This document shows, piece by piece, positions 7,380-42,090 of a stretch of DNA of 64,000 nucleotides. The DNA comes from an uncultured Roseobacter sp. (lineage in GTDB: Bacteria > Pseudomonadota > Alphaproteobacteria > Rhodobacterales > Rhodobacteraceae). The notes below the pieces were generated by a model, which was not told the origin of the DNA, searched no databases, and saw only the letters and a program-made list of their open reading frames with translations. How positions within the stretch are numbered: position 1 is the stretch's first letter; every line of letters begins with the position of its first letter. A program made the translations under genes and the position numbers. The stretch lies in the NCBI RefSeq assembly GCF_947495275.1, contig NZ_CANLYL010000002.1, positions 496,001 through 560,000 of the forward strand, read 5' to 3'.

Positions 7380-8018
7380 TCAGGCCCGATCAGCAGGGCT
7401 GCCGGGCATCAGATCATAGGGGTGTTTCCACCCGGGCGTGTTGGAAACTCGTGTGAGCCAGGCGTCGATATGGGGCCAGTCCACCCGGTCAAATCCAAAG
7501 CTTTCCGGGTAGTAGAGATAGCCGCAACAACACAGGTCCGCGTTTGTGATCTCGTCGCCGACAATCCAGTCACGCTCTGCAAGATGGTCGTTCAAAATCG
7601 CGTAGGCCGCCTTGAGACGCCCCTGATTGAAGGCGATGACCTCCCTAGGGCGCTTGTCCTCTGGCAGGAAATGCATCAGAAACCGCGTCGGGCCCGCAAC
7701 CGAGCTGAACTTGTGATTATCCCACAGTACCCAGCGCAGGATTTCGCGGCGCTCAGTGGCATCCTTGCCCGCGAACTTTCCTGACTTTTCAGATACATAA
7801 TCCTGAATAACCCCGGATTGGGTCAGGCGGATGTCGCCGTCTACCATCACCGGCACCTCGCCCATGCTGTTGACGTTTGCGCGGTACTCCGGCGTGCGAG
7901 CCTCACCGCCAAAGAAATCCACCTTTACAGGCTCCCAGTTGAGTCCGGAAAGTTCAAGAGCAAGGGCCGCCTTATAGGCATTGCCGCTTTCGCCAAAGCA
8001 ATAAAGTTGGATGGTCAT
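7380..8018 (-). CDS. Glutathione S-transferase family protein
   Basis: A 212-residue cytosolic GST-fold protein. The N-terminal thioredoxin-like domain (about 1-80) contains [11 protein letters not shown], where a Ser in the CxxS/S-type active-site loop could activate glutathione, and the cis-Pro segment [10 protein letters not shown]. An all-helical C-terminal domain follows. The start overlaps the stop of the upstream acyl-CoA dehydrogenase as ATGA, so the two are probably translated together. The stop is 69 bases before the thiolase start. A substrate within acyl-CoA metabolism is not known; detoxification of an unsaturated intermediate is one possibility. Confidence 0.88.
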
Positions 8019-21002: not shown

Positions 21003-21033
21003 TCAGCAGGCTTGCCAAGAAGATGAGTGATTG

Positions 21034-23394: not shown

Positions 23395-23416
23395 TTTTTG
23401 CAAACGTGTGCAAAAA
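23395..23416. promoter_or_regulatory. LacI-type operator candidate before the ABC importer
   Basis: The eight-base arms TTTTTGCA (23395-23402) and TGCAAAAA (23409-23416) are perfectly inverted around AACGTG, giving the GCAAACG-type half-sites typical of LacI/GalR operators. It lies 75 bases before the ATPase start in a 276-base intergenic region that has no gene. The LacI protein encoded at 32974-33981 is the obvious candidate ligand. Confidence 0.68.
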
Positions 23417-23490: not shown

Positions 23491-24546
23491 ATGGCCGAAA
23501 TTCAACTGCGCAATATCAACAAGCGTTGGGGCAGCTTCGTAGGTGTCGATAACTTTGATCTGACCATCGCCGACGAGGAATTTCTGGTCCTTCTGGGGCC
23601 ATCGGGCTGTGGGAAAACCACAACCATGCGTATGATCGCGGGACTGGAGGACGCGACAGAGGGTGAGATCATCATCGACGGGCGCGTGGTCAACGATTTG
23701 GACCCAAAGGACCGCGATGTTGCGATGGTGTTCCAGTCCTACGGTCTCTATCCCAACATGAATGTTTACGAGAACATTCGCTTTCCATTGAAAGTTCGCA
23801 AGATTCCGGAGGGTGAGCATGATGAACGCGTGCGCCGCGCCTCTGCAATGGTCGAACTCGACGACTTCCTGCATCGCAAACCTGCTGAACTCTCCGGTGG
23901 TCAACGTCAACGCGTGGCGTTGGCGCGGGCCATCGTGCGCGAACCCAACGTATTCCTGATGGATGAGCCTCTCAGCAACCTTGATGCCAAACTTCGGGTG
24001 TCCACGCGGGCGCAGATCAAGAACCTCAGCCACGAACTCAAAGTTACAACGGTCTATGTGACCCACGACCAGATTGAGGCCATGACATTGGCGGATCGCG
24101 TCGTCGTAATGAAGCAGGGCAAGGTGCAGCAGGTGGGCACGCCAACTGACATCTACGATCATCCCGCCAATACCTTTGTCGCAAGTTTCATTGGCAGTCC
24201 GGCCATGAACCTTGTCGATGGAACCTTGGAGGGCGGTGTTTTCACCGGAACCAACGTTTCGATTTCCGGGCTCAAAGGCCCTGATGGACCGGTAACGTTG
24301 GGGTTCCGCGCCGAAGATGCCACTCTCGCAGAAGGCGATGGTGGACAAATTACAGCGCCAATCTACACGATCGAGCTTTTGGGAGATGCGACGATGTTGA
24401 CCGTGCGTGCCGGTGGGCAACTGGTCTCGGTCAAGGCCCATAAGGAATTCCGTGCAGAGATTGGGGATATGGTTTCCTTCTCCGTACCGGTCGCAATCTG
24501 TCATTTGTTCGACAAAGACAGCGGGACGCGCATTCAGCTGTCCTAA
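23491..24546 (+). CDS. Sugar-type ABC transporter ATP-binding protein (MalK/UgpC-like)
   Basis: A 351-residue ATPase that energises the importer encoded by the next three genes. It shows Walker A GPSGCGKTTT near residue 38, Q-loop MVFQSYGLYPNM, signature LSGGQRQRVALARA near 135, Walker B NVFLMDEPLSNLDAKL near 154 and H-loop VYVTHDQIEAMTLADR. The C-terminal 110 residues form the TOBE/MalK-type regulatory domain (LGFRAEDATL). This CUT1-type architecture usually goes with sugars, polyols or glycerol phosphates. It is the first gene behind the operator candidate. Confidence 0.95.
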   Translation: MAEIQLRNINKRWGSFVGVDNFDLTIADEEFLVLLGPSGCGKTTTMRMIAGLEDATEGEIIIDGRVVNDLDPKDRDVAMVFQSYGLYPNMNVYENIRFPLKVRKIPEGEHDERVRRASAMVELDDFLHRKPAELSGGQRQRVALARAIVREPNVFLMDEPLSNLDAKLRVSTRAQIKNLSHELKVTTVYVTHDQIEAMTLADRVVVMKQGKVQQVGTPTDIYDHPANTFVASFIGSPAMNLVDGTLEGGVFTGTNVSISGLKGPDGPVTLGFRAEDATLAEGDGGQITAPIYTIELLGDATMLTVRAGGQLVSVKAHKEFRAEIGDMVSFSVPVAICHLFDKDSGTRIQLS

Positions 24547-24629
24547 GCCGTGATGCCCTTTTTCGGGGCCAACCAAAGGGTGCAGACTTGCAAGATGCAC
24601 CCGAGCCAACTGCAACAGGGAGTTTGCAT

Positions 24630-25850
24630 ATGTTCTTGAAGAAAATCGCATTGGCGGGGGCGATCTCGCTTATGGGAAGCACGGCATTTGCCGCGTGTTC
24701 CTACGAAAATACCACGCCGGTAAAATCTCTGAGTGCCGGATTTGAAGCCTGGAAGGCCGTCACGGATGCGATGGCTGAATGCGGAAACTTTCAGGCGGAG
24801 CTGGATCAGGAGTTCCGGACAAAGCAGCCTGCCGCGTTTGAAGCCAATCCGTCGCTTTACCAAATCGGTGGCGTGTCGAACGGAACCATCACGCCGCTGC
24901 TGAACGCCGGTACCATCCGCCCGTTGGACGATCTGGTCGAGAAATATGGGCAAAACCTGAAGCCCAATCAATTGATCCGCATCAATGGCCAGATCATGGC
25001 TGTGGCGATGATGGTGAACACGCAGCATCTGATGTATCGCTCTGACGTTCTTGCGGACCTTGGCATCGAAACACCCTCAACATGGGATGAAGTTCTGGCA
25101 GCCTCCGCCAAGATCAAGGAAGCTGGCGTCATGGAATACCCACTGGGTGCGACGCTGAAATCCGGCTGGAATCTGGCCCAGGATTTCAACAACATGTACG
25201 CCGGTTTTGGTGGCAAATTCTTCAACGATGACAACACGGCTGCCGTTAATTCCGAAGCGGGTATCAAATCGCTGGAGATGATGAAGGCGATGACCGAGTA
25301 TACGGACCCTGAAGTCCTTGTCTCGGATTCCACCTACGTACAACAGCAGTTCCAGCAGGGTAAAATTGCAATGGCAAACCTCTGGGCAAGCCGCGCGGGT
25401 GCGATGGATGATGAAGCTGAAAGTCAGGTTGTCGGTAAGGTTGCGATGTCGGCTGCTCCCAAAGCTATGGAGGGCGGTGTTCCGGCCACAACTTTGTGGT
25501 GGGACGGTATCGTGATCGCCAAGAACATCTCTGACGAAGAGGCTGATGCCGCCTTCCGTCTCGCGATGGAAGGGCTGGATTCCGAAATGGTGAAAAGTGC
25601 CAATGACGCTGCGATCTGGCTGGTGGATGGCTACGCGCCAACTGACATTGCCAAGGGTGCGATTGAGACAGCGACGGCAAATCCTGCACCACCCGCCTAT
25701 CCATCCACAACGCAGATGGGGCTGCTTCATTCCGCTCTGGGCAACGAGTTGCCAGCATTCTTTACAGGAGAACGCAGCGCCGAAGCCACTTTGGAAGCAA
25801 TTACCGAAGCCTATACAACGTCAGCTAAAGAAGCTGGTGTCTTGAAGTAA
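24630..25850 (+). CDS. ABC transporter substrate-binding protein
   Basis: A 406-residue periplasmic binding protein of the family 1 (maltose-type) group. The signal peptide FLKKIALAGAISLMGSTAFA probably cleaves before Ala-Cys-Ser. The two-lobed core includes YQIGGVSNGTITPLLNAG near residue 80 and the lobe-crossing segment MMVNTQHLMYRSDVLADLGI, with GVPATTLWWDGIVIAKN late. CAGGGAG precedes ATG 24630. A strong stem-loop follows the gene, as expected where the binding protein must outnumber the permeases. The ligand is unknown. Confidence 0.93.
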   Translation: MFLKKIALAGAISLMGSTAFAACSYENTTPVKSLSAGFEAWKAVTDAMAECGNFQAELDQEFRTKQPAAFEANPSLYQIGGVSNGTITPLLNAGTIRPLDDLVEKYGQNLKPNQLIRINGQIMAVAMMVNTQHLMYRSDVLADLGIETPSTWDEVLAASAKIKEAGVMEYPLGATLKSGWNLAQDFNNMYAGFGGKFFNDDNTAAVNSEAGIKSLEMMKAMTEYTDPEVLVSDSTYVQQQFQQGKIAMANLWASRAGAMDDEAESQVVGKVAMSAAPKAMEGGVPATTLWWDGIVIAKNISDEEADAAFRLAMEGLDSEMVKSANDAAIWLVDGYAPTDIAKGAIETATANPAPPAYPSTTQMGLLHSALGNELPAFFTGERSAEATLEAITEAYTTSAKEAGVLK

Positions 25851-25858
25851 ACAAACGG

Positions 25859-25880
25859 CTGGCCGGGTATTCCCGGCCAG
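25859..25880 (+). other. Stem-loop after the binding-protein gene
   Basis: A perfect nine-pair stem (CTGGCCGGG at 25859-25867 and CCCGGCCAG at 25872-25880) with a TATT loop and no T run. It begins eight bases after the stop codon. It probably protects the upstream mRNA from 3' decay or attenuates readthrough to the permeases, as in maltose-type operons. Confidence 0.75.
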
Positions 25881-25924
25881 CGATCTTCTGTCGGCGATGT
25901 TTTGTTAAGCGCATCGAAATGTGT

Positions 25925-25953
25925 TTTGCAAAGCAAATTGAGCACTTTGCAAA
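25925..25953. promoter_or_regulatory. Paired TTTGCAAA octamers before the permease gene
   Basis: Two copies of the palindrome TTTGCAAA, at 25925-25932 and 25946-25953, are exactly 21 bases (two helical turns) apart in the gap between binding protein and first permease. The same octamer is the core of the operator candidate at 23395-23416. They could be secondary LacI sites; binding is untested. Confidence 0.4.
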
Positions 25954-25977
25954 CCGAGTTGTCACGAGGGCAAGCCC

Positions 25978-27003
25978 ATGAAATTCAAGACTTTTGCTGC
26001 TTTTGTTGGTCCATCTGTTTTCATGATGCTGTTGTTCATTGCGGCACCGTTGGTTAGCGTGTTCATCCAGAGTTTCCAAGTCACACAACCCATTTTGGAA
26101 CAGATAGAGGTAGAAACCTGCACTCCCGGGTTCGTGACGCAAACCTGTACAACCGAAATCAAGACCGTACCGGTTCTGGATGACAGCGGGAAAACCGTGA
26201 CGGAAACACGATGGGTGGGTTTGCAAAGTTACCGGAATGTTTTGCAAATGGAAAAGTTCTGGAGCGCTGTCGGGAATGGCGACTGGAATGCGATCATGCA
26301 GATCGACTTTTGGAAGGCCCTCAGATTCACCCTGTCGTTCACTTTGCTGACACTGCCATTGGTGATTGGCGTTGGTCTTGCCATCGCGCTGGCGGTCAAC
26401 AATGCCACGCGGGCCATTCGCGGGCCCATCATATTCATCTCGCTGCTGCCCTTTATCATCACGCCGGTCATCGGGTCACTGTCGATCTATTGGCTTTTTG
26501 TCGGGGACGGTATCCTGACGGCGATGCTTGAACGCTGGAGTGGCACCAACATTTCAATGTTTGCTCAGGCTTGGACCATTGAACTGCTGATGTACTTCTA
26601 CCGGGTCTGGCATGTGGCACCTTTCGCGTTCGTCATTTTCTATGCGGGTTTGCAGACTGTGAACATGGACACGCTGGAATCCGCTGTGATCGACGGTGCG
26701 AGCCGCTGGGAACGGCTGCGTCACGTCATCGTGCCACATCTGATGCCGCTGATCATTTTCATCGCGCTTATTCACCTGATGGATTGCTACCGCGTCTTCG
26801 AGGAAATCGTCGGTTTCCGCAGCCAGGCGCATGTCATTTCACTGCAATGGCTCACTTATGATTTCATGACGCCTGACGATGCCGGAAACCGTGCGATCAG
26901 CCGCGCGTCTGCGTCGGCTATGCTGACCATGGTCGGGATCGTCTTCCTGCTGATCCTGCCGTTGCGCCGAACCTGGCGAGACCACAAAGGGAGCGCGCAC
27001 TAA
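25978..27003 (+). CDS. ABC transporter permease, MalF-like
   Basis: A 341-residue inner-membrane subunit with about six membrane spans. The first span (about 10-30) is followed by a periplasmic stretch of about 60 residues holding two Cys (ETCTPGFVTQTC), unusual but small. The cytoplasmic coupling EAA loop reads ESAVIDGASRWERLRHVIVP near residue 235. It pairs with the next permease, whose ATG overlaps this TAA by one base. RBS: CACGAGGG region before ATG 25978. Confidence 0.92.
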   Translation: MKFKTFAAFVGPSVFMMLLFIAAPLVSVFIQSFQVTQPILEQIEVETCTPGFVTQTCTTEIKTVPVLDDSGKTVTETRWVGLQSYRNVLQMEKFWSAVGNGDWNAIMQIDFWKALRFTLSFTLLTLPLVIGVGLAIALAVNNATRAIRGPIIFISLLPFIITPVIGSLSIYWLFVGDGILTAMLERWSGTNISMFAQAWTIELLMYFYRVWHVAPFAFVIFYAGLQTVNMDTLESAVIDGASRWERLRHVIVPHLMPLIIFIALIHLMDCYRVFEEIVGFRSQAHVISLQWLTYDFMTPDDAGNRAISRASASAMLTMVGIVFLLILPLRRTWRDHKGSAH

Positions 27004-28160
27004 TGTCGACACCCAAAGCCATGCAGCAGTCTTTTGCGCTGCGTTTTTCCTCCGGTGCCTTCCTTGCGTTCTGGTGCCTGCTTGCCGCCTTCCCGATCTT
27101 CTGGATCGCGGTCATGAGTTTCAAATCCCCGGTAGACGCCTTTGCAGACAGCCCATGGGATGTGATCCTTGGCCCCGCCACCCGCGCCAACGGGGACGGG
27201 CTGTCGCTCTTGGACATCGTCGTTGGTCTCGTCGTGCTCTACTTTGCGATCCGGTGGGCGTTCACACGTCTTCCGGGTCTGGTTCGGCAATACTGCCCGC
27301 CGGGCCTGTTGGTATTGGGTTGGGTTTTCGGCGCGATCGCCTATGCCTTGGCATTTGTCCTGATCTTTTTTGGCCTTTTGCCTTTGGTTCTGGGGGCTCT
27401 CAATAGCATCCTGGGGCCCCTCGGCGCGCCGGTTCTTGGACTTACAACTGACCATTACGTGGCGGTGTGGGGCGAGAACGAATTCTACCGCAATTTTCTC
27501 AACTCGATGCTGGTAACGGCGGGGGTTGTCACCATTTCACTGACTGTGGGAACCTTGGCAGGCTATGGTCTCGCGCGTTCCGGCTCTGACCTTGCGTTCT
27601 GGCTGCTGATCCTGGCCTTGGTGTTCCGCGCCTTGCCGCACTCGGTTTTGGTTGCCGGATACCTGCCTGTCTTTATCAACTCTTCTGAAATCCTGCGTCC
27701 GATATTTGGCGACGGTGCGCCCACGCTTTACGGGCAACCCTGGGCCGTCATCGCCGTTCTGGTGTCGATCAACCAGCCTTTTACCATCTGGATGCTGCGC
27801 TCGTTTTTCCAGAATATCCCGGCAGAACTGGACGAAGCTGCCCGCGTTGATGGGTGCAGTCACTTTCAGGCTTTCCGCCGTGTCATCATGCCGGTGATGT
27901 GGCCGGGGGTGATCACCACGGGTCTCTTTTCCTTCCTGCTGGGGTACAATGACTTTCTGGTAACATCCCTGCTTCTGGACGCACAAAACCAGACCATGGT
28001 TCCGGCCATCGCAGGGTATTTCAACCGTGAAACAACCACCACGGATCAGGTCGAAGCGGTCGCGGCGGCGGTGTCGATCACCGCACCCCTGTTCCTGCTG
28101 GTCATGGTGTTCCAGCGCCAGATTGTATCGGGTCTGACGGCGGGGGCTGTGAAAGGCTGA
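27003..28160 (+). CDS. ABC transporter permease, MalG-like, with inserted membrane segment
   Basis: A 385-residue permease, about 100 longer than the usual MalG-type subunit. After the first span (about 17-40) there is an insertion (about 60-140) with two or three additional hydrophobic stretches, for example LSLLDIVVGLVVLYFAI and ALAFVLIFFGLLPLVLG. The normal core then resumes at DHYVAVWGENEFYRNFLNSM. The EAA loop is ELDEAARVDGCSHFQAFRRV. It probably forms a heterodimer with the MalF-like protein. The next gene is 127 bases away in the same direction, so the transcript may continue into the catabolic genes. Confidence 0.92.
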   Translation: MSTPKAMQQSFALRFSSGAFLAFWCLLAAFPIFWIAVMSFKSPVDAFADSPWDVILGPATRANGDGLSLLDIVVGLVVLYFAIRWAFTRLPGLVRQYCPPGLLVLGWVFGAIAYALAFVLIFFGLLPLVLGALNSILGPLGAPVLGLTTDHYVAVWGENEFYRNFLNSMLVTAGVVTISLTVGTLAGYGLARSGSDLAFWLLILALVFRALPHSVLVAGYLPVFINSSEILRPIFGDGAPTLYGQPWAVIAVLVSINQPFTIWMLRSFFQNIPAELDEAARVDGCSHFQAFRRVIMPVMWPGVITTGLFSFLLGYNDFLVTSLLLDAQNQTMVPAIAGYFNRETTTTDQVEAVAAAVSITAPLFLLVMVFQRQIVSGLTAGAVKG

Positions 28161-28287
28161 TGAGCAGACGTGCCAGAACCGGCCTGATGCAGCGTCACCC
28201 GGCGCTCAACAGGCTGCCCAGGGATTTCATCTTGAGATGCGTCACTGATCTGACGCTGTTTCAAAACAAAGATGAAAGGACCCTGTG

Positions 28288-28818
28288 ATGAAGGGATCAA
28301 GGCCAGAACAGGCCGTGCTCAGCAAAGACACGGACATGAGCAAAACCGAAGAGACCCGTGCGGTCATTGAGGGTATGGTGGACGGCCTGAACGACCACCG
28401 CATAGATGATATCGGTACCTTCTTTGCCGATGGCTTTCGCTGGATGGGCAATCAGGGATGCGGCACCAAAATCGGGTTGCAGGCGTTCCAGGATAATTGG
28501 CAACGGCCTTTTCAGGCGGCCTTTTCCGACAAGGTTTGTGTGGATGAAGCGCGGCTTTACATGGGCGAATGGGCCGCCGCTTTTGGCCGACAGGAAGCCA
28601 CGCATTCGGGCGCATTCATGGGTGTCGAACCAACAGGCAAGCGCGTGGAAATTCGGTACATGGATTTCTGGAAAGTGGAGGAAGGCCGCATCACCGATAA
28701 TTGGGTGATGGTGGATTTCCCGCATGTGCTGGCCCAGTTGGGCAAGGATGTTTTTCAGGGGGAAGGCTGGGAAGCCTTTGATCGCGGTGAAAAAACGCCG
28801 CCGCGTCCCGATCAGTAA
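28288..28818 (+). CDS. Single-domain NTF2/SnoaL-like protein
   Basis: A 176-residue soluble protein with one NTF2-like cone fold. The middle has FFADGFRWMGNQGCG and the C-terminal strand pair MDFWKVEEGRITDNWVMVDF. That last motif recurs in the second halves of the two tandem NTF2 proteins downstream, so these are paralogues. GAAAGGA lies six bases before the adjoining GTG/ATG pair (28285/28288); ATG 28336 is an alternative start. The gene follows the importer and precedes the HisD-like enzyme by 12 bases. SnoaL relatives act as cyclases, isomerases or hydratases, but the reaction here is unknown. Confidence 0.8.
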   Translation: MKGSRPEQAVLSKDTDMSKTEETRAVIEGMVDGLNDHRIDDIGTFFADGFRWMGNQGCGTKIGLQAFQDNWQRPFQAAFSDKVCVDEARLYMGEWAAAFGRQEATHSGAFMGVEPTGKRVEIRYMDFWKVEEGRITDNWVMVDFPHVLAQLGKDVFQGEGWEAFDRGEKTPPRPDQ

Positions 28819-28830
28819 AGAGGTGGTCTC

Positions 28831-30159
28831 ATGGCAATTGAATATCTCAAAAGTGGAAAACCGGCCGCAGAACGTGCTGACGATGATGCAAAAACGCGCG
28901 CTGCAGTGGAGGCGACACTCGCTGATATCGAAGCGCGCGGTGACGTGGCCGTGCGGGCATTATCGGAAAAGTTCGACAACTATTCTCCTGCCAGCTTCAG
29001 GCTGAGTATGGCGGAAATTGACGCGTTGATCGCTCAGTTGAGCCCGCGCGAATTGGCGGACATCAAGTTCGCACAGGAACAGGTTCGCAATTTCGCACAA
29101 GCGCAACGCGACAGCATGCTGGATATCGAAGTCGAAACCATGCCCGGGGTCATCTTGGGGCACAAGAACATCCCCGTGCAATCGGTCGGGTGCTATGTTC
29201 CGGGCGGGAAATTTCCAATGGTGGCCAGCGCGCATATGTCCGTCGCCACGGCTTCGGTTGCCAAGGTGCCGCGTATCATTGCCTGCACGCCGCCCTTCAA
29301 GGGCAAGCCCAATCCGGCAGTGATCGCCGCGATGCATCTGGGCGGCGCGCATGAGATTTACGTCATGGGGGGTATTCAGGCGGTCGGGGCCATGGCCCTT
29401 GGCACAGACACCATTGAGCCTGTGCACATGATCGTGGGTCCGGGCAACGCCTTTGTCGCAGAAGCCAAACGCCAGCTTTTTGGCCGTGTCGGGATTGATC
29501 TTTTCGCAGGCCCCACGGAAACCATGGTGATCGCGGATGATACAGTAGACGCGGAGATCTGTGCCACCGATCTTTTGGGGCAGGCGGAGCATGGGTATAA
29601 CTCACCCGCCGTGCTCCTGACCAATTCGCGCAAACTTGCAGAACAAACGCTTTCCGAGATTGACCGCATTCTGGAAATTTTACCAACCGCGGACACCGCG
29701 AAAGTCAGTTGGGAGGACTATGGCGAAGTGATCCTGTGTAGCAGCTATGACGAAATGCTGGCCGTTGCCGATGATATTGCTTCCGAGCATGTGCAGGTGA
29801 TGACCGACCGGGATGACTGGTTTCTGGAGAACATGACCTGCTACGGTGCGCTGTTTCTCGGCCCGCGCACGAATGTGGCCAATGGCGACAAGGTCATCGG
29901 GACGAACCACACCCTGCCGACCAAAAAAGCCGGGCGGTATACGGGCGGGTTGTGGGTTGGTAAGTTTTTGAAAACGCATAGCTATCAGAAGGTTCTCACC
30001 GATGAGGCGGCCGCAGAAATCGGGGCTTATGGCTCGCGCCTGTGCATGTTGGAAGGCTTTGTCGGTCATGCGGAGCAGTGCAATCTGCGTGTGCGCCGCT
30101 ATGGCGGGGTGAATGTTCCCTATGGCACCGGCGCACCGGTGCAGGAAGCGGCGGAGTAA
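28831..30159 (+). CDS. Histidinol-dehydrogenase-family alcohol dehydrogenase (HpsN-like)
   Basis: A 442-residue HisD-superfamily enzyme, a zinc- and NAD-dependent four-electron oxidation of a primary alcohol to a carboxylate. The zinc ligands are conserved as Gln251, His254, Asp353 and His413, and the catalytic pair as Glu319-His320. The substrate-recognition parts differ from biosynthetic HisD and the protein resembles HpsN, the 2,3-dihydroxypropane-1-sulfonate 3-dehydrogenase of marine bacteria. With an importer upstream and no his genes nearby, a catabolic alcohol substrate is more likely than histidinol. DHPS is one candidate only. Confidence 0.85.
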
Positions 30160-30165
30160 TCCTGC

Positions 30166-31170
30166 ATGGACGCCAATCAGCGCAACAAGGACAAGGCGCT
30201 GGCGCTTTGGACAGCGCTCGACACCGACCCTGGCAGTGCGCGCGCGCTTTTGCCCGCGCTCACCTATTGGCAAGCGTCGGAACCCATTGGTGTGCACACC
30301 GATGCGGACGCGGTGATCGCGCAACTTTTCACCCCGTTGCGCGCCGCGATCCCTGATCTGAAACGGGACGTGCATATATTCATGGGTGGTGCGTCCGAAG
30401 CCCATGAGAGTGGTGCCGAAGATGGCGCGTGGTGGGTCGCTGGCACCGGCTACTATACCGGGCGGGCAACGGCATCGGCCTTCGGTATCCCGGCAACACA
30501 GACCGATTTGCGGATCAGATGGGGTGAATTCTTGCGTTTTGACGATGCGGGCGAGATTACCCATGCGCAGACGATCTGGGATTTCGTCGACTGGTGCGAC
30601 CAGATTGGCATGCCGGTGCTGCCCAAACCGCGCGGAGCATTGCATGTTTTCCCGGCGGCGACGGCGTATGACGCGATTCTGAGCACGCCCCAAAGCGATG
30701 TCGCAACCCGCGAGACACTTGATTTCGGGCGGAATTTCATCTTCGGCGGTCTCAACCGCTACGACGAAAATGACCTTGGCAGCATGGGGATGGCCCGGTT
30801 TTTTCACCCGAATGTCAAATGGTACGGCCCCGGCGGCATCGGGGCGTGCCTGTCCTTGCGCGAGTTCGAGACCCTGCATCAAAATCCTTGGTTGACAGCC
30901 TTTCCCGACCGCAAGGTGATGCATCTGGAAAGCCTATTTGCAGAGGATCGTCTGTTGGCCGCCTCTGGTCCCAAAGGGGTCATCGGGACGCACAGCGGGA
31001 CCTATCTGGGTCATCCGGCAACGGGCAATCCCATCGAGGTTTCGGGCCTGGATTTCTGGTTGCGCACCGGTGGAAAATTCACCGAAAACTGGGTCTTTGT
31101 GGACATGGTGCATCTCTTTGCGCAGATGGGTGTAGATCTCTTTACCCGCCTCGAAAGATCCGCCGTATGA
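30166..31170 (+). CDS. Tandem NTF2-like protein A
   Basis: A 334-residue protein with two NTF2-like domains (about 1-155 and 185-330). The second contains FFHPNVKWYGPGGIGACL, HQNPWLTAFPDRKV and LDFWLRTGGKFTENWVFVDM, closely matching the second half of the next gene. The first half ends FDDAGEITHAQTIWDF. GGAG lies nine bases before ATG 30166, and the gene begins six bases after the HisD-like stop. Its TGA overlaps the next ATG as ATGA. Coupling of the two tandem proteins hints at a complex. Confidence 0.8.
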   Translation: MDANQRNKDKALALWTALDTDPGSARALLPALTYWQASEPIGVHTDADAVIAQLFTPLRAAIPDLKRDVHIFMGGASEAHESGAEDGAWWVAGTGYYTGRATASAFGIPATQTDLRIRWGEFLRFDDAGEITHAQTIWDFVDWCDQIGMPVLPKPRGALHVFPAATAYDAILSTPQSDVATRETLDFGRNFIFGGLNRYDENDLGSMGMARFFHPNVKWYGPGGIGACLSLREFETLHQNPWLTAFPDRKVMHLESLFAEDRLLAASGPKGVIGTHSGTYLGHPATGNPIEVSGLDFWLRTGGKFTENWVFVDMVHLFAQMGVDLFTRLERSAV

Positions 31171-32216
31171 CGGATTTGCCCACATACCACAAAGAGCTGA
31201 TCGCCCCCTTTCGCGCGGCACTTTATGATTTTGATATCAAGGCATTGCGCAGAACGCTGCAGGATATTTCCGCGCCGGATGCAATGTTTCGCCTGTCCTT
31301 CCCATTTGAGACCATGCAGAGCGTTGACACCTTCGTCGACACCGCCTTTGTCCCCTTGCAAAGCGCAATCCCCGACCTTGAGCGCCGCGATTTCATTGTG
31401 ATGGCCGGGGCCACGCCGGAGGGTCATCAATGGGTTGGCTTCGGCGGGTATTATTGCGGCACGTTTCACAAGCCCTGGCGCGACATCCCGGCGACCGGGC
31501 ATATCGTCCACATGCGGTTTCACGAGTTCTTCCGCTTTGTCGAGGGGCAGCTCGTTGAAATGCAGGCGATCTGGGACATTCCCGAGGTGATGATGCAGGC
31601 AAATGCCTGGCCGATGACGCCATCGCTGGGGCGCGAATGGCATGTGCCTGCGCCCGCCAGCAATGATGGCATCATTCCCGGCCCGCATGATCCAGCGGCG
31701 GGTATGGCAACATGCCAGCATATCATCGATGCGTTGAATTATCTCAAGAAACACCCTTCCGAGGGCGGACCGGAGGTCATGGAAATGGACCGTTTCTGGC
31801 ACCCCAAACTGATGTGGTACGGGCCTTCCGGCATTGGCAGTGGTCGCGGCATCGAAGGGTTTCGAAACTGGCACCAGATCCCCTTCCTCAAGGCGATGCC
31901 GGATCGGGGGCAATATCTGGACGAGATCGAATACCACTTCTTTGGGGAGGCAAATTACGCCGCTGTCACCGGCTGGCCAAACATGTATCAATCCATCACT
32001 CAAGGAGGCTGGCTCGGCATCGCGCCGACGGGCCAGAAGATCGAAATGCGCTCTCTGGATTTCTGGCGCGTGGAAAACGGGCTGATCCGTGAAAACTGGG
32101 TATTGGTTGATCTATTGCAGATGTATGATCAGATCGGGGTCGATGTTTTCGCGCGCCTGCGCGAGTTCAACAAGGCCCGCGCGGGATTTGACCCGGAAAC
32201 AGGAGTGGCCCTTTAA
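31167..32216 (+). CDS. Tandem NTF2-like protein B
   Basis: A 349-residue paralogue of the preceding product, also of two NTF2-like domains. The first half ends MRFHEFFRFVEGQLVEMQAI and the second holds FWHPKLMWYGPSGIGSGRG, HQIPFLKAMPDR and LDFWRVENGLIRENWVLVDL. Shared His-Pro, Trp-Tyr-Gly-Pro and Asn-Trp-Val residues are good candidates for a conserved pocket. It starts at the ATGA overlap with protein A; its TAA overlaps the SDR start by one base. No homologue of known reaction was recognised. Confidence 0.8.
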   Translation: MTDLPTYHKELIAPFRAALYDFDIKALRRTLQDISAPDAMFRLSFPFETMQSVDTFVDTAFVPLQSAIPDLERRDFIVMAGATPEGHQWVGFGGYYCGTFHKPWRDIPATGHIVHMRFHEFFRFVEGQLVEMQAIWDIPEVMMQANAWPMTPSLGREWHVPAPASNDGIIPGPHDPAAGMATCQHIIDALNYLKKHPSEGGPEVMEMDRFWHPKLMWYGPSGIGSGRGIEGFRNWHQIPFLKAMPDRGQYLDEIEYHFFGEANYAAVTGWPNMYQSITQGGWLGIAPTGQKIEMRSLDFWRVENGLIRENWVLVDLLQMYDQIGVDVFARLREFNKARAGFDPETGVAL

Positions 32217-32974
32217 TGGATTTGCCGAGAACGCCAAAGTTTGACCTGACCGGTCAACGCGCGCTGGTCACCGGAGCGTCCTCCGGCATCGGTCTGGGTT
32301 GCGCCGTGGCTATGGCAGAAGCAGGAGCCCATGTCGTGTGCGCCGCGCGGCGCCTGGACGTGCTGCAAGCCTCGGTCAATGCTATGGCTGCGCAAGGCTG
32401 GTCCGTCGAAGCCCTGCCGCTTGATCAGACAGATGTGGCCGCTTTGCCCGCCGTCTTTGAAGCGCCCTTCGACATTGTCGTCAATTCTGCCGGGCTGGCA
32501 CGTCATTCACCCGCCGTGGAAACCACGCCTGATGATTTTGACGCGGTGATGAATATCAATTTGCGGGGGGCGTATTTTCTGTCCGCCGAGGCGGCAAAAG
32601 CCCTGATGTCGGCCGGAAAACGCGGCTCGATCATCCATATTTCCAGTCAGATGGCGCATGTGGGCGGTGTGGACCGCGCGGTTTACTGCGCGTCCAAACA
32701 TGCGCTGGAAGGCATGGTCAAATCCATGGCAATCGAATGGGGCAAGTCAGGTATCCGGATCAATACGATCTGCCCCACGTTCATTCGCACGCCACTGTCA
32801 GCAGTGACACTCGACAACCCCGAACGCCTTGCATGGATCATGGACAAGATCAAACTGCCCCGCGTGGGCGAGATTGAAGACATCATGGGGGCGGCCCTCT
32901 TTCTGGCCTCAGATGCCTCGGCCATGGTCACCGGCACCTCGATGATGATTGATGGCGGGTGGACAGCAGGCTGA
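32216..32974 (+). CDS. Short-chain dehydrogenase/reductase
   Basis: A 252-residue classical SDR using NAD(P). The dinucleotide motif TGASSGIG is at residues 19-26, NSAG near residue 90, and the catalytic Ser (HISSQ) with Tyr-x3-Lys (YCASK) lies between about 138 and 160. The C-terminal MMIDGGWTAG is the usual end. The segment CAARRLDVL after the first helix suggests NADP preference (two Arg), but this is weak. It is coupled to the genes on both sides by one-base stop-start overlaps and probably oxidises or reduces a hydroxy/keto intermediate of this pathway. Confidence 0.92.
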   Translation: MDLPRTPKFDLTGQRALVTGASSGIGLGCAVAMAEAGAHVVCAARRLDVLQASVNAMAAQGWSVEALPLDQTDVAALPAVFEAPFDIVVNSAGLARHSPAVETTPDDFDAVMNINLRGAYFLSAEAAKALMSAGKRGSIIHISSQMAHVGGVDRAVYCASKHALEGMVKSMAIEWGKSGIRINTICPTFIRTPLSAVTLDNPERLAWIMDKIKLPRVGEIEDIMGAALFLASDASAMVTGTSMMIDGGWTAG

Positions 32975-33981
32975 TGGGCAAAGTGACCTCTCTGGAAGTG
33001 GCTGAAAAGGCCGGCGTCAGCCGATCCGCTGTCAGCCGCGTCTTCACGCCCGGTGCTTCCGTCAGCAAGGGGACTGCGGAAAAGGTGCGCAAGGCGGCGG
33101 CGCAACTGGGTTACCGGCCCAATGTGATCGCCCGCTCGCTGATCACCGGGCGCAGTCGCATCATCGGTCTGGTCGTGGCCTATCTGGAAAACCAGTTCTA
33201 CCCGGAGGCGATTGAGCGCCTGTCCAAAGCGTTGCAGGCCGAGGGTTACCATGTTCTGGTTTTCATGGCATCGAACGATCATGACGCCACACAATCGGTG
33301 ATTGACGAGCTATTGGATTATCAGGTCGATGCGATCATCGCCGCCTCGGTGGGCCTTTCGAACGATCTGACAAAACGCTGTGAGGGCCTGGGCATTCCCA
33401 TCGTTCTGTTCAACCGTCACCAATATGATGATCGCCTCACCAGCGTCACATCCGACAATGTGGCAGGGGGGCGAAAACTGGCGGACTTCCTGATTGCGGG
33501 CGGACATACCCGCATCGCGCATATCGCGGGTTGGGAGGATGCATCCACGCAAATTGACCGCGAGAAGGGGTTTGTTGCCGGGCTGGCGGCAGCGGGCATG
33601 ACGCTATTTGCCCGCGGTGTTGGTAATTTCAACTTTGAAACCGCACAGGCGGCGGCCCGCGAAATGTTTGCCGCAGAAGACCGTCCGGACGCTGTATTTG
33701 TGGCGAATGATCACATGGCTTTTGCCGTGATGGATGTGCTGCGATACGAGTTGAAACTGCGCATACCGCAGGATGTGTCGGTTGTTGGGTACGACGATGT
33801 GACGCTGTCGCACTGGCCCAGTTACGATCTGACAACCGTGCGCCAACCAGCCAATCGCATGGTCTCAGCGACAGTTGAGGCACTGCTTGCCCGCCTGACT
33901 GAAGCAGATGATGCGCCCCGGCGGATTGCGCTGGATGGCCCCCTGATTATCCGCGGCTCCGCCCGCAAACCTGAGGAATAA
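32974..33981 (+). CDS. LacI-family regulator inside the catabolic operon
   Basis: A 335-residue repressor. The N-terminal helix-turn-helix and hinge are clear (TSLEVAEKAGVSRSAVSRVF, then LGYRPNVIARSL at about 48-60), followed by a sugar-binding-protein-like effector domain starting GLVVAYLENQFYPEAIERL. ATG 32974 overlaps the SDR stop by one base; an in-frame ATG 15 bases upstream is less likely. Being the tenth gene of the transcript it would be autoregulated if it binds the operator at 23395-23416. The effector is unknown. Confidence 0.93.
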   Translation: MGKVTSLEVAEKAGVSRSAVSRVFTPGASVSKGTAEKVRKAAAQLGYRPNVIARSLITGRSRIIGLVVAYLENQFYPEAIERLSKALQAEGYHVLVFMASNDHDATQSVIDELLDYQVDAIIAASVGLSNDLTKRCEGLGIPIVLFNRHQYDDRLTSVTSDNVAGGRKLADFLIAGGHTRIAHIAGWEDASTQIDREKGFVAGLAAAGMTLFARGVGNFNFETAQAAAREMFAAEDRPDAVFVANDHMAFAVMDVLRYELKLRIPQDVSVVGYDDVTLSHWPSYDLTTVRQPANRMVSATVEALLARLTEADDAPRRIALDGPLIIRGSARKPEE

Positions 33982-33987
33982 ACGAAC

Positions 33988-34956
33988 ATGAAAGGCTTCG
34001 ATCCGAAGTTCAAGGACTTTCCCGATTACATAATCGGGATCACCCGGGAAATCTGGGAGGATCGCGGCATCGCGACCCTGCACCAGTATTATTCAGACGA
34101 TATCGTGGTGCGCTCACCTGCTTCCGTGGTCATTGGCAATCAGAATGTGATTGGTGCGACCATGGCGACTTTGGCGGAGTTTCCGGACAGAACCCTGCTG
34201 GGGGAGGATGTGATCTGGTCAGGGACACCTGAGGAGGGGATGTTGTCCTCACACCGGTTGCTGAGCACGGCAACACATGCCCATGACGGCGTTTATGGCA
34301 AGGCGACCGGCAAGAAACTGACCTACCGCATTCTGGCGGACTGCCATGCCATAAACAACCAGATCAACGATGAATGGCTGATCCGCGATCAGGGGGCGAT
34401 TGTCCGGCAATTGGGGTGGGATCCCAAGGCATATGCCGCTGAGCTGATCGCGCGCGAAGGGGGGCCGGAGGCTTGCGTCAAACCGCTGAGCCCGGCAACC
34501 GATCAACCCGGGCCCTACAAAGGACGGGGTAATGACAACCCCTTGGGGGCGAAATATGCCGACATCCTGACGCGGATCATGAGCGCGGATATGGCAGCCG
34601 TCGGGGCTGAATATGACCGGGCCGCCCATCTGGAATACCCCGGCGGCGTGACTGGTCACAGCCACGGCGATGCCGATCAGTTCTGGATGGGGCTGCGCGC
34701 CTCTTTCCCCGATGCGGAGTTCCGGATTGACCATCAGATTGGCCGCGACGATGCGATGATGCCGCCGCGCGCTGCCCTGCGCTGGTCGTTGCATGGCAAA
34801 CATTCAGGCTGGGGTCGGTTTGGCGCGCCCACAGGAGCCGAGGTTTATGTGCTGGGCATCAGCCACGCGGAATTCGGTCCCTGGGGGCTGCGCCGGGAAT
34901 ACGTCATATTCGATGAAACAACGATCTGGAAACAGATCCTGCTGCACACCGGGTGA
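33988..34956 (+). CDS. Tandem NTF2-like protein C
   Basis: A 322-residue protein again built from two NTF2/SnoaL-like domains. The first (about 5-145) includes YYSDDIVVRSPASVVIGNQN; the second (about 190-320) includes FWMGLRASFPDAEFRIDHQ and EYVIFDETTIWKQIL. It lacks the WYGP and NWVxVD motifs of proteins A and B and so belongs to a different subgroup. It starts six bases after the LacI stop. With the two tandem proteins and one single-domain protein, the operon has seven predicted NTF2-like domains. Confidence 0.78.
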   Translation: MKGFDPKFKDFPDYIIGITREIWEDRGIATLHQYYSDDIVVRSPASVVIGNQNVIGATMATLAEFPDRTLLGEDVIWSGTPEEGMLSSHRLLSTATHAHDGVYGKATGKKLTYRILADCHAINNQINDEWLIRDQGAIVRQLGWDPKAYAAELIAREGGPEACVKPLSPATDQPGPYKGRGNDNPLGAKYADILTRIMSADMAAVGAEYDRAAHLEYPGGVTGHSHGDADQFWMGLRASFPDAEFRIDHQIGRDDAMMPPRAALRWSLHGKHSGWGRFGAPTGAEVYVLGISHAEFGPWGLRREYVIFDETTIWKQILLHTG

Positions 34957-34960
34957 GGTC

Positions 34961-35590
34961 ATGGAGCCTTTCGGATCCCTCATGTTCACCCCTGCCGTCC
35001 AAGCAGAGCAGAAAGCGCGCGGATCACGTGACGCCAATGCGCGTATGGTGGCGCGTGGCGCGCCTGACGGGTTGGGCGAAGACGAAATCGCCTTTCTGAC
35101 CTCGCGCACATCGCTTTACATTGCCACGGTTTCGGAGACAGGCTGGCCCTATGTTCAGCATCGCGGCGGGCCACGCGGATTTCTCAAGGTGCTGGATGCG
35201 CAAACCATCGGCTTTGCGGATTATCGCGGCAACAGACAATATGTGAGTACGGGCAATCTGAAAAACGACGACCGCGTGTCCCTTTTTGCCATGGATTATC
35301 CGCGAAAAGCGCGCTTGAAACTGATCGGTCACGCAACCCTGGTTGATGCTGACGCTGCCCCCGATCTCGCGCAAGCACTGGCCAGCGGCGAGCAGGGCAA
35401 GGTCGAGCACCTTGTTACCATCAGGATTGCGGCATTCGACTGGAATTGCCCGCAGTTCATCACTCCCCGATTTGATACAGCCGAGATTGCGGCACTTGTC
35501 GCACCAGAACTTGAACGGCTGGAAACCGAAAATGCGCGTCTTGCTGATGAGTTGGCCAGCCTGCGCGAAACCCTGAAGAAAGATACCTGA
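34961..35590 (+). CDS. Pyridoxamine 5'-phosphate oxidase-fold flavoprotein
   Basis: A 209-residue protein with the split-barrel FMN-binding fold of the PNPOx-like family. Core segments are IAFLTSRTSLYIATVSETGW (about 45-64), QHRGGPRGFLKVLD and STGNLKNDDRVSLFAMDYP near residue 95. A C-terminal helix rich in Glu, Leu and Arg may be a coiled coil. These proteins bind FMN or F420 and reduce varied substrates or sense flavins; vitamin B6 synthesis is not implied. It starts five bases after the previous stop, and the bicupin ATG directly abuts its stop. Confidence 0.82.
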   Translation: MEPFGSLMFTPAVQAEQKARGSRDANARMVARGAPDGLGEDEIAFLTSRTSLYIATVSETGWPYVQHRGGPRGFLKVLDAQTIGFADYRGNRQYVSTGNLKNDDRVSLFAMDYPRKARLKLIGHATLVDADAAPDLAQALASGEQGKVEHLVTIRIAAFDWNCPQFITPRFDTAEIAALVAPELERLETENARLADELASLRETLKKDT

Positions 35591-36559
35591 ATGACCCCCG
35601 CTGAAATGGAAACCCGCATCGTTCGCTATGGCGATCTGAAGCCCTGCAAGACCGCGTTCATTGACGCGCACACGCCCGGCAGCGACCAGAAGGAAAATTT
35701 CACCATCATCGGCGGTGGCGTCTCCGAAAGCCCTGATCAGCACGTTCACATATCAATCCCGCACGGGTTCAACATCGGGGCTGCGGGCCAGCCGCCGAAG
35801 TGTCGCAACTCCCTGCACAGCCACCGCACGGCGGAGGTGTTTTTTGTCCTTAAGGGGCGTTGGCGGTTTTTCTGGGGCCGTTGGGGCGATGCTGGCGAAG
35901 TCATTCTGGACGAAGGGGATATTTTCAACATCCCCACGGGTATATTTCGCGGGTTTGAAAACATCGGCAATGACTACGGGATGATCATGGCCATCCTTGG
36001 CGGTGATGATGCGGGTGGTGGTGTGATCTGGGCACCGCAGGTAATTGAGGATGCTGCCGAACACGGGCTGGTTCTCTCCGAAGAAGGCAAGCTCTACGAC
36101 ACCAAACAGGGCCAGTCTCTGCCATCCGGTGTGAAGGCGATGCCGGTGCTTTCGGAGGCGGAACTGGCCCGCTATCCCGAACCTGCCACAGCCGATGTTA
36201 TCCCCAATCATGTGGCGCGGTACTGGGACATGGTGGCCCTGGCAGACAAGACTCCGGCCCGTGTCATCGGCGCTGAGGCAATGTTGCGTGATAAACCGGG
36301 GTTCGAGGTGTCACTGGTGACACGCGCCTCGGCATCGGCAGACATGCACCAGCATGATCGTGCCTCGGTCCTGATGCCGGTTACCGGCCATTGGAGGGTC
36401 TCCTGGGAGGGAGGGGCCGCAACGCTGGCGCCCGGCGACACAATGTCGGTTCCTGAAAACCTGATGCACAACGCGGTGCCTTCCATGACCGGTGAGGCCG
36501 CGCTTTATCACATCCTCGGCACCGATGATCCGGCCGGTCCCACATGGAGCGCGCCATGA
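35591..36559 (+). CDS. Bicupin protein (gentisate-dioxygenase-like fold)
   Basis: A 322-residue protein with two cupin barrels. The first has NSLHSHRTAEVFFVLKGRW (His76 and His78, Glu82 as likely metal ligands) and the second ADMHQHDRASVLMPVTGHW near residue 255. The length and two-barrel layout resemble gentisate or salicylate ring-cleaving dioxygenases as well as bicupin isomerases and dehydrogenase partners. No decisive dioxygenase motif was seen. It abuts the PNPOx-like gene and overlaps the MetE-like gene by ATGA. Confidence 0.78.
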   Translation: MTPAEMETRIVRYGDLKPCKTAFIDAHTPGSDQKENFTIIGGGVSESPDQHVHISIPHGFNIGAAGQPPKCRNSLHSHRTAEVFFVLKGRWRFFWGRWGDAGEVILDEGDIFNIPTGIFRGFENIGNDYGMIMAILGGDDAGGGVIWAPQVIEDAAEHGLVLSEEGKLYDTKQGQSLPSGVKAMPVLSEAELARYPEPATADVIPNHVARYWDMVALADKTPARVIGAEAMLRDKPGFEVSLVTRASASADMHQHDRASVLMPVTGHWRVSWEGGAATLAPGDTMSVPENLMHNAVPSMTGEAALYHILGTDDPAGPTWSAP

Positions 36560-37683
36560 CAGTTCTCACCACACATGTCGGTAGCCTGCCGCGCACGCAG
36601 AAGGTTGTGGATTTCATTTTCGCCCGTGAACGTGAGGAACCTTATGACGCGGCGGCGTTTGATGCGGCGATGACGCAAGCGGTCTCGCAAACGGTTGCCA
36701 AACAGGTCGCAGCGGGTGTGGATATTGTCAGCGATGGCGAGACTTCAAAGATTTCCTATGCCACCTATGTCAAGGATCGCTACACCGGGTTTTCGGGCGA
36801 CAGCCCGCGTAACGCACCGGCGGACCTAAAGAGATTCCCCAGCTTTCTCAAACGCTTGGCGGCAGATGGTGGCACACCGCAATACGCGCGACCCATGTGC
36901 ACCGGACAGGTCACGTCCAAAGGGCAGGGCGAGCTGCAAAAGGATATCGACAATCTGAAGGCGGCCATGTCCGAGCATGGCGCATCACGTGGTTTCATGA
37001 ACGCGGCCTCGCCCGGCGTGATTTCGCTTTTCCTGCAAAATGATTTTTACAAGACGCGGGAGGCCTATCTTGCGGCGCTCGCCGATGCGATGCGCGAAGA
37101 GTACCAGACCATTGTTGCCGCCGGGCTCGACGTGCAGCTTGATTGCCCCGATCTGGCGCTCTCGCGTCACATGCTTTTCAATGATCTGAGTGATGCGGAA
37201 TTTCTCAAGATCGCCGCCGCCCATGTGGAAGCCCTGAACCACGCGTTGCAGGATGTGCCCGAGGACCGCGTGCGCATTCACATTTGCTGGGGCAACTACG
37301 AGGGTCCCCATGTCTGCGATATTGGCATGGAAAAGGTCTTTGACGTGCTGATGTCCGCCAAGGCCCGCTATGTGCTTTTTGAGACCTCAAATCCGCGCCA
37401 TGCGCATGAATGGACGGTGTTCCGGGATCGCAAATCTGACATTCCGGATCACAAGGTGCTGGTGCCGGGCGTTGTCGATACAACGACCAACTTTGTGGAG
37501 CACCCTGAACTTGTGGCCCAAAGGATCGAACGGTTCACCGCGATTGTCGGTGAGGATCGTGTGATTGCCGGGTCGGATTGCGGTTTTGGCACATTTGCGG
37601 GATTTGGTTCTGTCGATCCGGAGATTGCCTTTGCGAAACTCGGCGCTCTCTCGGAGGGCTCAAAACTGGCGGGGGAACGATGA
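36556..37683 (+). CDS. MetE C-terminal-like zinc methyltransferase
   Basis: A 375-residue protein corresponding only to the catalytic C-terminal barrel of cobalamin-independent methionine synthase. The zinc site is complete: His242 and Cys244 in HICWGN, Glu276 and Cys342 in GSDCGFG. The N terminus TTHVGSLPRTQ is the usual start of this subgroup. It lacks the MetE N-terminal folate-positioning half, so it may transfer a methyl or alkyl group from a catabolic substrate to a thiol, as in epoxyalkane:CoM transferase and related enzymes. It overlaps both neighbours as ATGA, which places it firmly in the pathway. Confidence 0.85.
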   Translation: MTVLTTHVGSLPRTQKVVDFIFAREREEPYDAAAFDAAMTQAVSQTVAKQVAAGVDIVSDGETSKISYATYVKDRYTGFSGDSPRNAPADLKRFPSFLKRLAADGGTPQYARPMCTGQVTSKGQGELQKDIDNLKAAMSEHGASRGFMNAASPGVISLFLQNDFYKTREAYLAALADAMREEYQTIVAAGLDVQLDCPDLALSRHMLFNDLSDAEFLKIAAAHVEALNHALQDVPEDRVRIHICWGNYEGPHVCDIGMEKVFDVLMSAKARYVLFETSNPRHAHEWTVFRDRKSDIPDHKVLVPGVVDTTTNFVEHPELVAQRIERFTAIVGEDRVIAGSDCGFGTFAGFGSVDPEIAFAKLGALSEGSKLAGER

Positions 37684-38378
37684 TGGACGACGCACTTCTG
37701 GAACTGTTGCGCCGCGTCGATACGCCGACGGTCTGCAATGCGATCGAAGTGGCACAGGGCAAGCGCGGTTTCAATGATTTCACCCGTGGCACCATGCTGT
37801 GTTCCGCGCCCGAAGCCCCCGCGATTGTAGGCTACGCCCGTACGGCGCGCATTCAGGCGGTAAACCCTGCAACCGAGCCGCCCGAGATCATCAAGGCGCG
37901 CCGCATGGCCTACTACAAATACATGTCCGAAGGGCCGCGCCCGGGCGTGGCGGTTGTTCAGGATATGGATGTACCCGGTGCCATCGGGGCCTATTGGGGC
38001 GAGGTCAACACCAACATTCACAAGGCTTTTGGGCTCTCGGGCGCGTTAACGGACGGTGTCATGCGTGATCTGGGTGATCTGCCCGATGGGTTTTCGGTGG
38101 TGGCGGGTTCCATTGGGCCCAGCCATGGGTTTGTGCATGTGATCGACTTTGATCAGCCGGTTGATATTTTTGGTATGACGGTCGCGCCGGGGGCATTGGT
38201 ACATGCTGACCGGCACGGTGCTGTGGTGATCCCCGAAGCGGTTGTCCCGCATCTTGGCGAGGCCATCGCAACGCTGATGCGCTCCGAAAAGATCGTCTTT
38301 GACGCGGTCAAGGGAAAGCAGATCACTTTTGAAGACTTCGAAGCGGTCTGGGCGGCGTTTGAGGCGGCCCGGACCTGA
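37680..38378 (+). CDS. RraA-like aldolase/decarboxylase
   Basis: A 232-residue protein of the RraA/4-hydroxy-4-methyl-2-oxoglutarate aldolase family. The N-terminal VDTPTVCNAIEVAQG and the metal/phosphate loop GALTDGVMRDLGDL, with Arg-Asp, are typical, and GAYWGEVNTNIHKAFG precedes the latter. Catabolic members cleave 4-hydroxy-2-oxo acids to pyruvate or decarboxylate oxaloacetate. It starts at the ATGA overlap with the MetE-like gene and is the last gene of the plus-strand run. It may release a central metabolite at the end of the pathway. Confidence 0.85.
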   Translation: MMDDALLELLRRVDTPTVCNAIEVAQGKRGFNDFTRGTMLCSAPEAPAIVGYARTARIQAVNPATEPPEIIKARRMAYYKYMSEGPRPGVAVVQDMDVPGAIGAYWGEVNTNIHKAFGLSGALTDGVMRDLGDLPDGFSVVAGSIGPSHGFVHVIDFDQPVDIFGMTVAPGALVHADRHGAVVIPEAVVPHLGEAIATLMRSEKIVFDAVKGKQITFEDFEAVWAAFEAART

Positions 38379-42087: not shown

Positions 42088-42090
42088 CAC

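Follow-up and report, generated by a model that had tools for sequence, protein, structure and literature searches.

A Roseobacter operon joining seven SnoaL/NTF2-like domains to an HpsN-like dehydrogenase: a candidate catabolic route for a small polyhydroxylated compound

The DNA analysed here (the window) is a 64,000-nucleotide stretch from an uncultured Roseobacter sp. (G000:C2:496001-560000, in a genome of 5.08 Mb), the closest relatives of which, judged by protein C described below, are Roseobacter strains. A single-strand run of genes at 23491-38378 encodes a sugar-type importer followed by one single and three tandem SnoaL/NTF2-like proteins (S1, A, B and C) and a set of putative catabolic enzymes. 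With a probability of roughly 0.6, we regard this run as a catabolic operon under LacI control that serves the use of a polyhydroxylated, sugar-like small carbon source, possibly nitrogen-containing and methylated, in which proton-transfer steps of the NTF2 enzymes would feed a core of oxidation, cleavage and pyruvate-aldolase reactions. This reading draws on gene content, a conserved operator, recurrence in related genomes, the NTF2 folds of B and C and conserved active-site motifs; from these we infer the reaction steps. The operon, with open reading frames (ORFs) where their starts differ from the judged ones, is laid out as follows.

23398-23413, no strand assigned: LacI-type operator, palindrome TTGCAAACGTGTGCAA, 77 bases 5' of the first importer gene; same pattern in relatives
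23491-24546, + strand: importer ATP-binding protein, MalK/UgpC type
24588-25850, + strand: solute-binding protein, SBP_bac_1; ORF opens at TTG 24588 and the real start may be downstream
25978-27003, + strand: importer permease, MalF type, named from position and sequence; no NCBIfam match at 1e-20
27003-28160, + strand: importer permease, MalG type, named from position and sequence; no NCBIfam match at 1e-20
28288-28818, + strand: S1, single SnoaL/NTF2 protein; conserved start ATG 28288, ORF opens at GTG 28285
28831-30159, + strand: HisD-like dehydrogenase, of an HpsN-like subfamily without the sulfonate-recognising His
30166-31170, + strand: A, tandem SnoaL/NTF2 protein
31167-32216, + strand: B, tandem SnoaL/NTF2 protein
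32216-32974, + strand: short-chain dehydrogenase/reductase (SDR), KduD/HpsO-like
32974-33981, + strand: LacI regulator; start ATG 32974 from relatives, ORF opens at GTG 32959
33988-34956, + strand: C, tandem SnoaL/NTF2 protein
34961-35590, + strand: PNPOx-fold flavoprotein
35591-36559, + strand: bicupin
36556-37683, + strand: MetE-like catalytic-core protein (Meth_synt_2, 54.9 bits); start from relatives, ORF opens at ATG 36544
37680-38378, + strand: RraA-like class II aldolase; ATG 37680 is the judged start, ORF opens at TTG 37578

The four NTF2 genes that an earlier note on this DNA had placed at 28288, 30166, 31167 and 33988 are open frames ending at 28818, 31170, 32216 and 34956 respectively, and the gene content bears out its description of a single run behind a sugar-type importer. 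From S1 through the RraA-like gene, neighbours overlap or are spaced by 12 bases at most (some starts were judged from relatives). A and B overlap by ATGA, B and the SDR by one base, and the SDR and LacI genes by one base provided that LacI starts at ATG 32974. The statement that most genes are joined by overlaps was slightly generous, as 6-base gaps separate the HisD-like gene from A and LacI from C, and 12 bases separate S1 from the HisD-like gene.

All four proteins scored above the gathering score (28.4 bits) of Pfam SnoaL, PF07366 (S1 72.8, A 66.6, B 69.9 and C 49.4 bits), with one matching stretch in S1 and two each in A, B and C. Thus, the seven NTF2-like domains claimed earlier were recovered. 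AlphaFold models of the tandems that were modelled, B (predicted local distance difference test, pLDDT, 94.2) and C (pLDDT 92.0), each contained two repeated NTF2 units, as the fold check proposed for the halves had anticipated. Structure matches to B covered each half singly, while those to C covered the second half only, Lsd19 excepted. The C-terminal pattern DFW...NWVxVD attributed to S1, A and B is present in all three, whereas its internal GxI reads GKF in A; on inspection of the sequences, WYGPxGIG is common to A and B and C differs. Polar residues conserved in at least 97% of homologues included H107, D127 and N139 in S1 (72 rows; 177-residue numbering), E120, D137, H236, D298, E309 and D315 in B (79 rows, >50% identity) and D134, H249, H272, E304 and D309 in C (104 rows). 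The structures closest to the NTF2 domains include SnoaL-type, ketosteroid isomerase and epoxide hydrolase enzymes. With such near-invariant polar blocks and enzymes among the nearest structures, the earlier view of these domains as non-catalytic-looking is not supported. The S1 residue aligned to the catalytic Asp121 of SnoaL is Val, so the chemistry of S1 must be arranged differently.

Profile comparison of the individual domains paired the second halves of A and B at 99.8% probability and their first halves at 99.3%, with an A profile built from two sequences. S1 paired with the second halves of B (99.8%) and A (99.3%). The two halves of C paired with each other at 99.2%, and its first half matched the second-half type (S1 and the second halves of A and B) at 95.7-97.3% and the first halves of A and B at 12-13%. 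On this pairing, the tandems arose at least twice: A and B derive from one fusion of two domain types, S1 is a free copy of the second of these, and C seems to stem from a duplication of its own. Deinococcus QL22 also carries one single and three tandem proteins with seven NTF2 domains; all four are closest to C (29-33% identity), which indicates that domain multiplication there was separate.

The HisD-like dehydrogenase has HpsN as its closest solved relative (389.5 bits, against 244 at best for HisD structures). According to the CpHpsN structure paper (PMC11382572), His126 sets the sulfonate enzymes apart. At this position (motif 122-126), 102 HisD-like rows, the window included, have Met (95) or Leu (7), while equivalents of the HpsN Zn ligands, Glu318, His319, Asp352 and Lys353 are kept in all 102. 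Because His126 is absent throughout, the enzyme probably acts on a vicinal diol other than sulfopropanediol. Of the earlier family calls for the partner genes, all were right, except that the HisD-like protein is HpsN-like and not a biosynthetic HisD. A role in histidine biosynthesis was rejected, given the closest solved structure and the presence of four other HisD-family genes in the genome, one of which (on contig C9, 38% identical) is likely its hisD. Elsewhere in the same genome (L088, G000:C35, 3265-12968), an 85% identical HisD-like copy belongs to a different sugar ATP-binding cassette operon, whose further genes encode LacI, bicupin, hydrolase and an HpcH-type aldolase, with an RraA match where the contig ends; no NTF2 match was found in that operon.

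Among the other partners, the SDR has KduD as its best NCBIfam model, below cut-off (198.4 of 338.85 bits). In the N-terminal cupin of the bicupin, H76, H78, E82 and R120 are invariant (91 rows); its profile matches were weak, to acireductone dioxygenase (E 3e-4 over 44 positions) and 3-hydroxyanthranilate dioxygenase (0.004). The C-terminal cupin matched quercetinase (2e-4), the top row being an unassigned cupin (6.7e-5). Putative Zn-site and homocysteine-site motifs of the MetE-like protein are invariant in 68 of 68 rows. The RraA-like protein matches PF03737 (57.2 bits; gathering score 24.5), and its motif R and D are kept in 64 of 64 rows.

Confirmed relatives of C in the searched genome contigs numbered 399; the NTF2 gene set is thus not a matter of chance. 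Locus counts refer to the best 80 of these, at most 79 of which are distinct (L071 and L073 are identical); L022, labelled Nocardioides though matching at 83%, is a doubtful record, and unlabelled ORFs in the relatives' gene maps are crude calls. Gene order in the 80 loci is very stable: MalK-SBP-MalF-MalG-S1-HisD-B-SDR-LacI-C-(PNPOx)-bicupin-MetE-(hydrolase)-RraA, where SBP is the binding protein. Matches anywhere in the loci, some counts being reduced by loci cut at their ends, were found for LacI and C (80 each), B (78, at >=50% identity), SDR and bicupin (77 each), HisD-like (76), S1 (72), MetE (70), RraA (67), an alpha/beta hydrolase after C that is absent from the operon of the window (48), PNPOx (13) and A (2, a full-length ORF in L037 and a fragment in L030). 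An extra B-type tandem, often beside the importer, occurs in at least 58 of 71 loci, those in which a binding protein was matched; the nine loci lacking such a match were excluded. Transporter type was discarded as a predictor of this extra tandem: a split of 34/35 versus 4/36 was largely an artefact of loci cut upstream and became 34/35 versus 24/36 with partial matches. A glutathione S-transferase gene adjoins B in five operons, four of Roseibium type and one of Sulfitobacter (L015, L033, L036, L051 and L060), assigned by Pfam for L060 and by clustering for the rest.

Within the family, 120 genomes, one per genus, were compared at E-value cut-offs chosen to favour orthologues (about 1e-100 for C, with G355 at 2.0e-100 counted in and the weaker matches of G316, G339, G350, G371 and G391 counted out). 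C occurred in 41, S1 in 32, B in 32, the HisD-like gene in 54 and the MetE-like gene in 39. S1 and B were found only in genomes with C (32 of 32 each), C was accompanied by the HisD-like gene in 40 of 41 (the exception is G344), and the MetE-like gene was nested wholly inside the HisD-like set; S1, B and C were all present in 25 of the 41. Fisher values for co-occurrence were all below 1e-12, a figure that overstates independence as the genomes are related. The claim that the four NTF2 genes travel together therefore stands for S1, B and C and fails for A. In a phylum-wide sample, C occurred in 16 of 299 genomes, ten of them from the same family.

Further afield, alpha- and gammaproteobacteria, Deinococcus and Priestia have more or less complete versions of a set made up of C, a HisD-family gene, SDR, LacI, cupin, hydrolase and an RraA or HpcH aldolase. 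A plasmid collection held C homologues in 53 records, 52 of them covering >80% of the query; in the ten plasmid loci examined, a C-type protein stood in one stretch with the HisD-like to aldolase genes in Pantoea dispersa (L155), Novosphingobium (L161), Sinorhizobium medicae (L159), Paracoccus alcaliphilus (L158) and two Deinococcus plasmids (L154, the QL22 locus, and L163). The cupin of Deinococcus and Priestia is a single domain matching the first half of the bicupin (38% and 36% identity respectively). A second HisD-family gene accompanies an amidase or C-N hydrolase gene in L154, L155, L161, L162 and L163, and an amidase in L122/L123; these second-type genes have Leu or Ile at the HpsN His126 position. 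This type (44-51% identical to the window's gene; also in L156) recurs near amidase or C-N hydrolase genes as a side observation. In Sinorhizobium medicae ml29 (L159, 4168-5648), the HisD-like match falls in two pieces (84% and 55%) with no gene listed, and may be broken, mis-called or unlisted. A further NTF2-like protein lies beside C at L112:638-1369 and L114:8302-9129, with a SnoaL_2 match in its second half that is below the gathering score in L114; a sodium-symporter-like gene is nearby in both loci, and a TonB-receptor-like gene in L112.

The palindrome TTGCAnnCGnnTGCAA at 23398-23413 is also found 5' of the importer in relatives, often as two copies about 55 bases apart. The pattern is exact in 55 of the 80 related loci and in 70 of 151 loci, a count in which the copy in the window, two sites of an inositol cluster and overlapping loci are included. 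It is present in the Pantoea, Paracoccus and Novosphingobium stretches and was not found in the other seven of the ten plasmid loci. The window holds one exact match, and 37 of 100 shuffles match at one mismatch or fewer; the pattern is insignificant in the window alone and takes its weight from conservation. A regulon extending beyond the operon was rejected, as the sole other exact sites in the genome (C2:331350 and C2:335663) lie in an apparent myo-inositol cluster, assigned by eye, with its own LacI.

In the proposed pathway, the NTF2/SnoaL enzymes would carry out acid-base steps on the imported compound, such as beta-elimination, migration of a double bond or hydrolysis adjacent to a carbonyl, with two covalently linked cones in each tandem. 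The HisD-like enzyme would convert a terminal CH(OH)-CH2OH to CH(OH)-COOH in two NAD steps, as HpsN does, and the SDR would oxidize a neighbouring secondary alcohol. The N-terminal cupin, probably metal-dependent, may rearrange or cleave the product, and the alpha/beta hydrolase of the relatives with an RraA- or HpcH-type aldolase would complete the route, yielding pyruvate. Methyl or alkyl transfer to a thiol is proposed for the MetE-like protein. In this scheme, the NTF2 proteins may represent an adaptable front end and the HisD/SDR pair a more constant core. No description of such a degradation route was found in a literature search, in keeping with the earlier remark that the gene set matches no known pathway; the main text of PMC4334477 contains neither of the terms SnoaL and histidinol.

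The most specific reading linking most of the conserved parts, a long shot built from chemistry on paper, takes gadusol/mycosporine-type O-methylated cyclohexenones as the substrate. The NTF2 tandems would release variable amino-acid or amino-alcohol substituents, the HisD-like enzyme would oxidize the ring C-CH2OH to COOH, and the MetE-like protein would remove the O-methyl group, exposing a cyclic reductone. The cupin, distantly acireductone dioxygenase-like, could open the ring to 4-carboxy-4-hydroxy-2-oxoadipate, a substrate of RraA-family aldolases, and the RraA-type aldolase would release pyruvate and oxaloacetate. With seven carbons left once the methyl group is removed, the carbon count agrees; the SDR is left without a clear place, and the second HisD-type gene with amidase or C-N hydrolase in several relatives, some from leaf or rhizosphere, would suit fungal amino-alcohol mycosporines. 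One review (PMC3083659) states that mycosporine-glycine is hydrolysed to 6-deoxygadusol and that shinorine hydrolysis by Vibrio harveyi has been suggested. No bacterial genes for gadusol/mycosporine catabolism were among the literature matches listed.

Several findings weigh against the proposed reading of the operon. With Val at the catalytic position in S1, the SnoaL mechanism is not transferable, and A is rare. In 14 of the 54 family genomes with the HisD-like gene, S1, B and C are missing at the cut-offs used; two of these (G316 and G371) carry a distant C-type protein (31-32%), and HisD-like and SDR matches are neighbours in eight of 11 HisD loci from 11 of the 14. Priestia filamentosa (L156) carries the set seen on the other plasmids, but its sole HisD-family gene belongs to the second type, with an identity of just 41%. 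Importer and NTF2 genes occur with no HisD match in the fetched stretch in Vibrio (L157), Phaeobacter (L160) and the window's own genome (L001), and C homologues are also found apart from the operon (L118-L121, L126 and L127). C-type tandems therefore have at least one setting outside the operon and, taken with the modules without a HisD match, the NTF2 proteins are not exclusive to this pathway. The own-genome module (G000:C29:1-18832, at 364-8550) comprises LacI, a single SnoaL-like ORF, MalG, MalF, a binding protein, a C-like tandem (28%) and two B-type tandems (27% and 49%). Lone C homologues of 38-53% identity (L118, L119, L121, L126 and L127) lie among ORFs that by eye are BAX-inhibitor-like, LysR and peptidase-like.

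The main competing explanation, which we consider unlikely, is a sugar-acid route parallel to alginate/pectin uronate breakdown, in which the HisD-like enzyme would oxidize CH2OH to a uronate-like acid, the NTF2 proteins would beta-eliminate the 4-substituent, the bicupin would act like KdgF/KduI and the SDR like KduD, and the aldolase would split a 2-keto-3-deoxy acid to pyruvate and an aldehyde. The KduD match of the SDR, sub-threshold as it is, and the presence of RraA or HpcH aldolases agree with it, as does a galactonate-dehydratase-like MR_MLE gene (below cut-off) downstream of the operon in the window. KdgF is also the best single-sequence PDB match of the bicupin, at a weak E 0.007; with a profile it falls to E 0.16, behind the two dioxygenases, all of these matches being weak. 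The conserved genes of the operon include neither a glycoside hydrolase nor a sugar kinase, and the MetE-like protein and the relatives' amidase are left unexplained by this route.

It is less probable still that the NTF2 proteins are ligand carriers or sensors and not enzymes, for example channelling a reactive intermediate between dehydrogenases. NTF2 cones can serve as binding or scaffold modules, two de novo binders are among the structure matches of B, and the extra B-type tandems adjoin importer genes; against this, acidic, His, Asn and Trp residues form invariant blocks in the proteins and many of the named nearest structures are enzymes. A route for a sulfonated sugar or polyol resembling dihydroxypropanesulfonate (DHPS) is very improbable. 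The HisD-like protein is far nearer HpsN than HisD structures and keeps Lys353, and the SDR is 40% identical to that of an hps-like cluster in the same genome, about the same as its best other paralogue (38%). DHPS was nevertheless not adopted as the main reading, because the diagnostic His126 (PMC11382572) is replaced in every row; moreover, the separate hps-like cluster (L090) has tripartite ATP-independent periplasmic (TRAP) transporter genes and an HpsN that keeps the His.

Two further genes flank the operon in the window. A single 727-aa ORF directly before it (21031-23214) resembles, by eye, a fused alpha and beta E1 of a 2-oxoacid dehydrogenase. A major facilitator superfamily gene at 40870-42090 has its closest matches in the Tet(A)/(B)/(C) efflux models, at scores short of the cut-offs (339.3 of 475 bits), and is linked to the operon in Roseobacter/Sulfitobacter-type loci.

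The marker protein C is widespread within an abundant marine family (found in 46 of the 120 genomes at E 1e-10), and plasmids of Deinococcus, Bacillota and gammaproteobacteria carry related sets; the substrate is therefore likely to be a common natural compound. Here a fold best known from biosynthesis has undergone multiplication and fusion more than once within a catabolic operon. The analysis also defines a branch of the HpsN/HisD family in which the sulfonate residue is missing.

Among known systems, polyketide (ester) cyclases and hydroxylases of the SnoaL/AclR/IdmH type belong to the same family, PF07366, and are the best PDB matches of the operon NTF2 proteins, by sequence and by fold. 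The operon proteins differ from them in being mostly tandem, in standing in a catabolic operon and, in S1, at the Asp121 position. Ketosteroid isomerase, with an active site of Tyr and two Asp, matches them at the level of the fold. The polyether epoxide hydrolases Lsd19 and MonBI/MonBII, which are biosynthetic and not catabolic, are the solved proteins that align along both halves of B (Foldseek, among the 50 rows listed), and Lsd19 also aligns along both halves of C; however, the whole-chain root-mean-square deviation is 15-18, the two cones not superposing together. MetE (Meth_synt_2) and the MetE-like protein have the putative Zn and homocysteine motifs in common, whereas the latter is the catalytic core only and reaches 90.8 bits to PRK04326 against an equivalog cut-off of 406. 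HpsN and the HisD-like dehydrogenase share Zn ligands and the Glu/His/Asp set; in contrast to hps clusters, the operon described here lacks the His126 of that enzyme and differs in its importer, cupin, aldolase and NTF2 genes.

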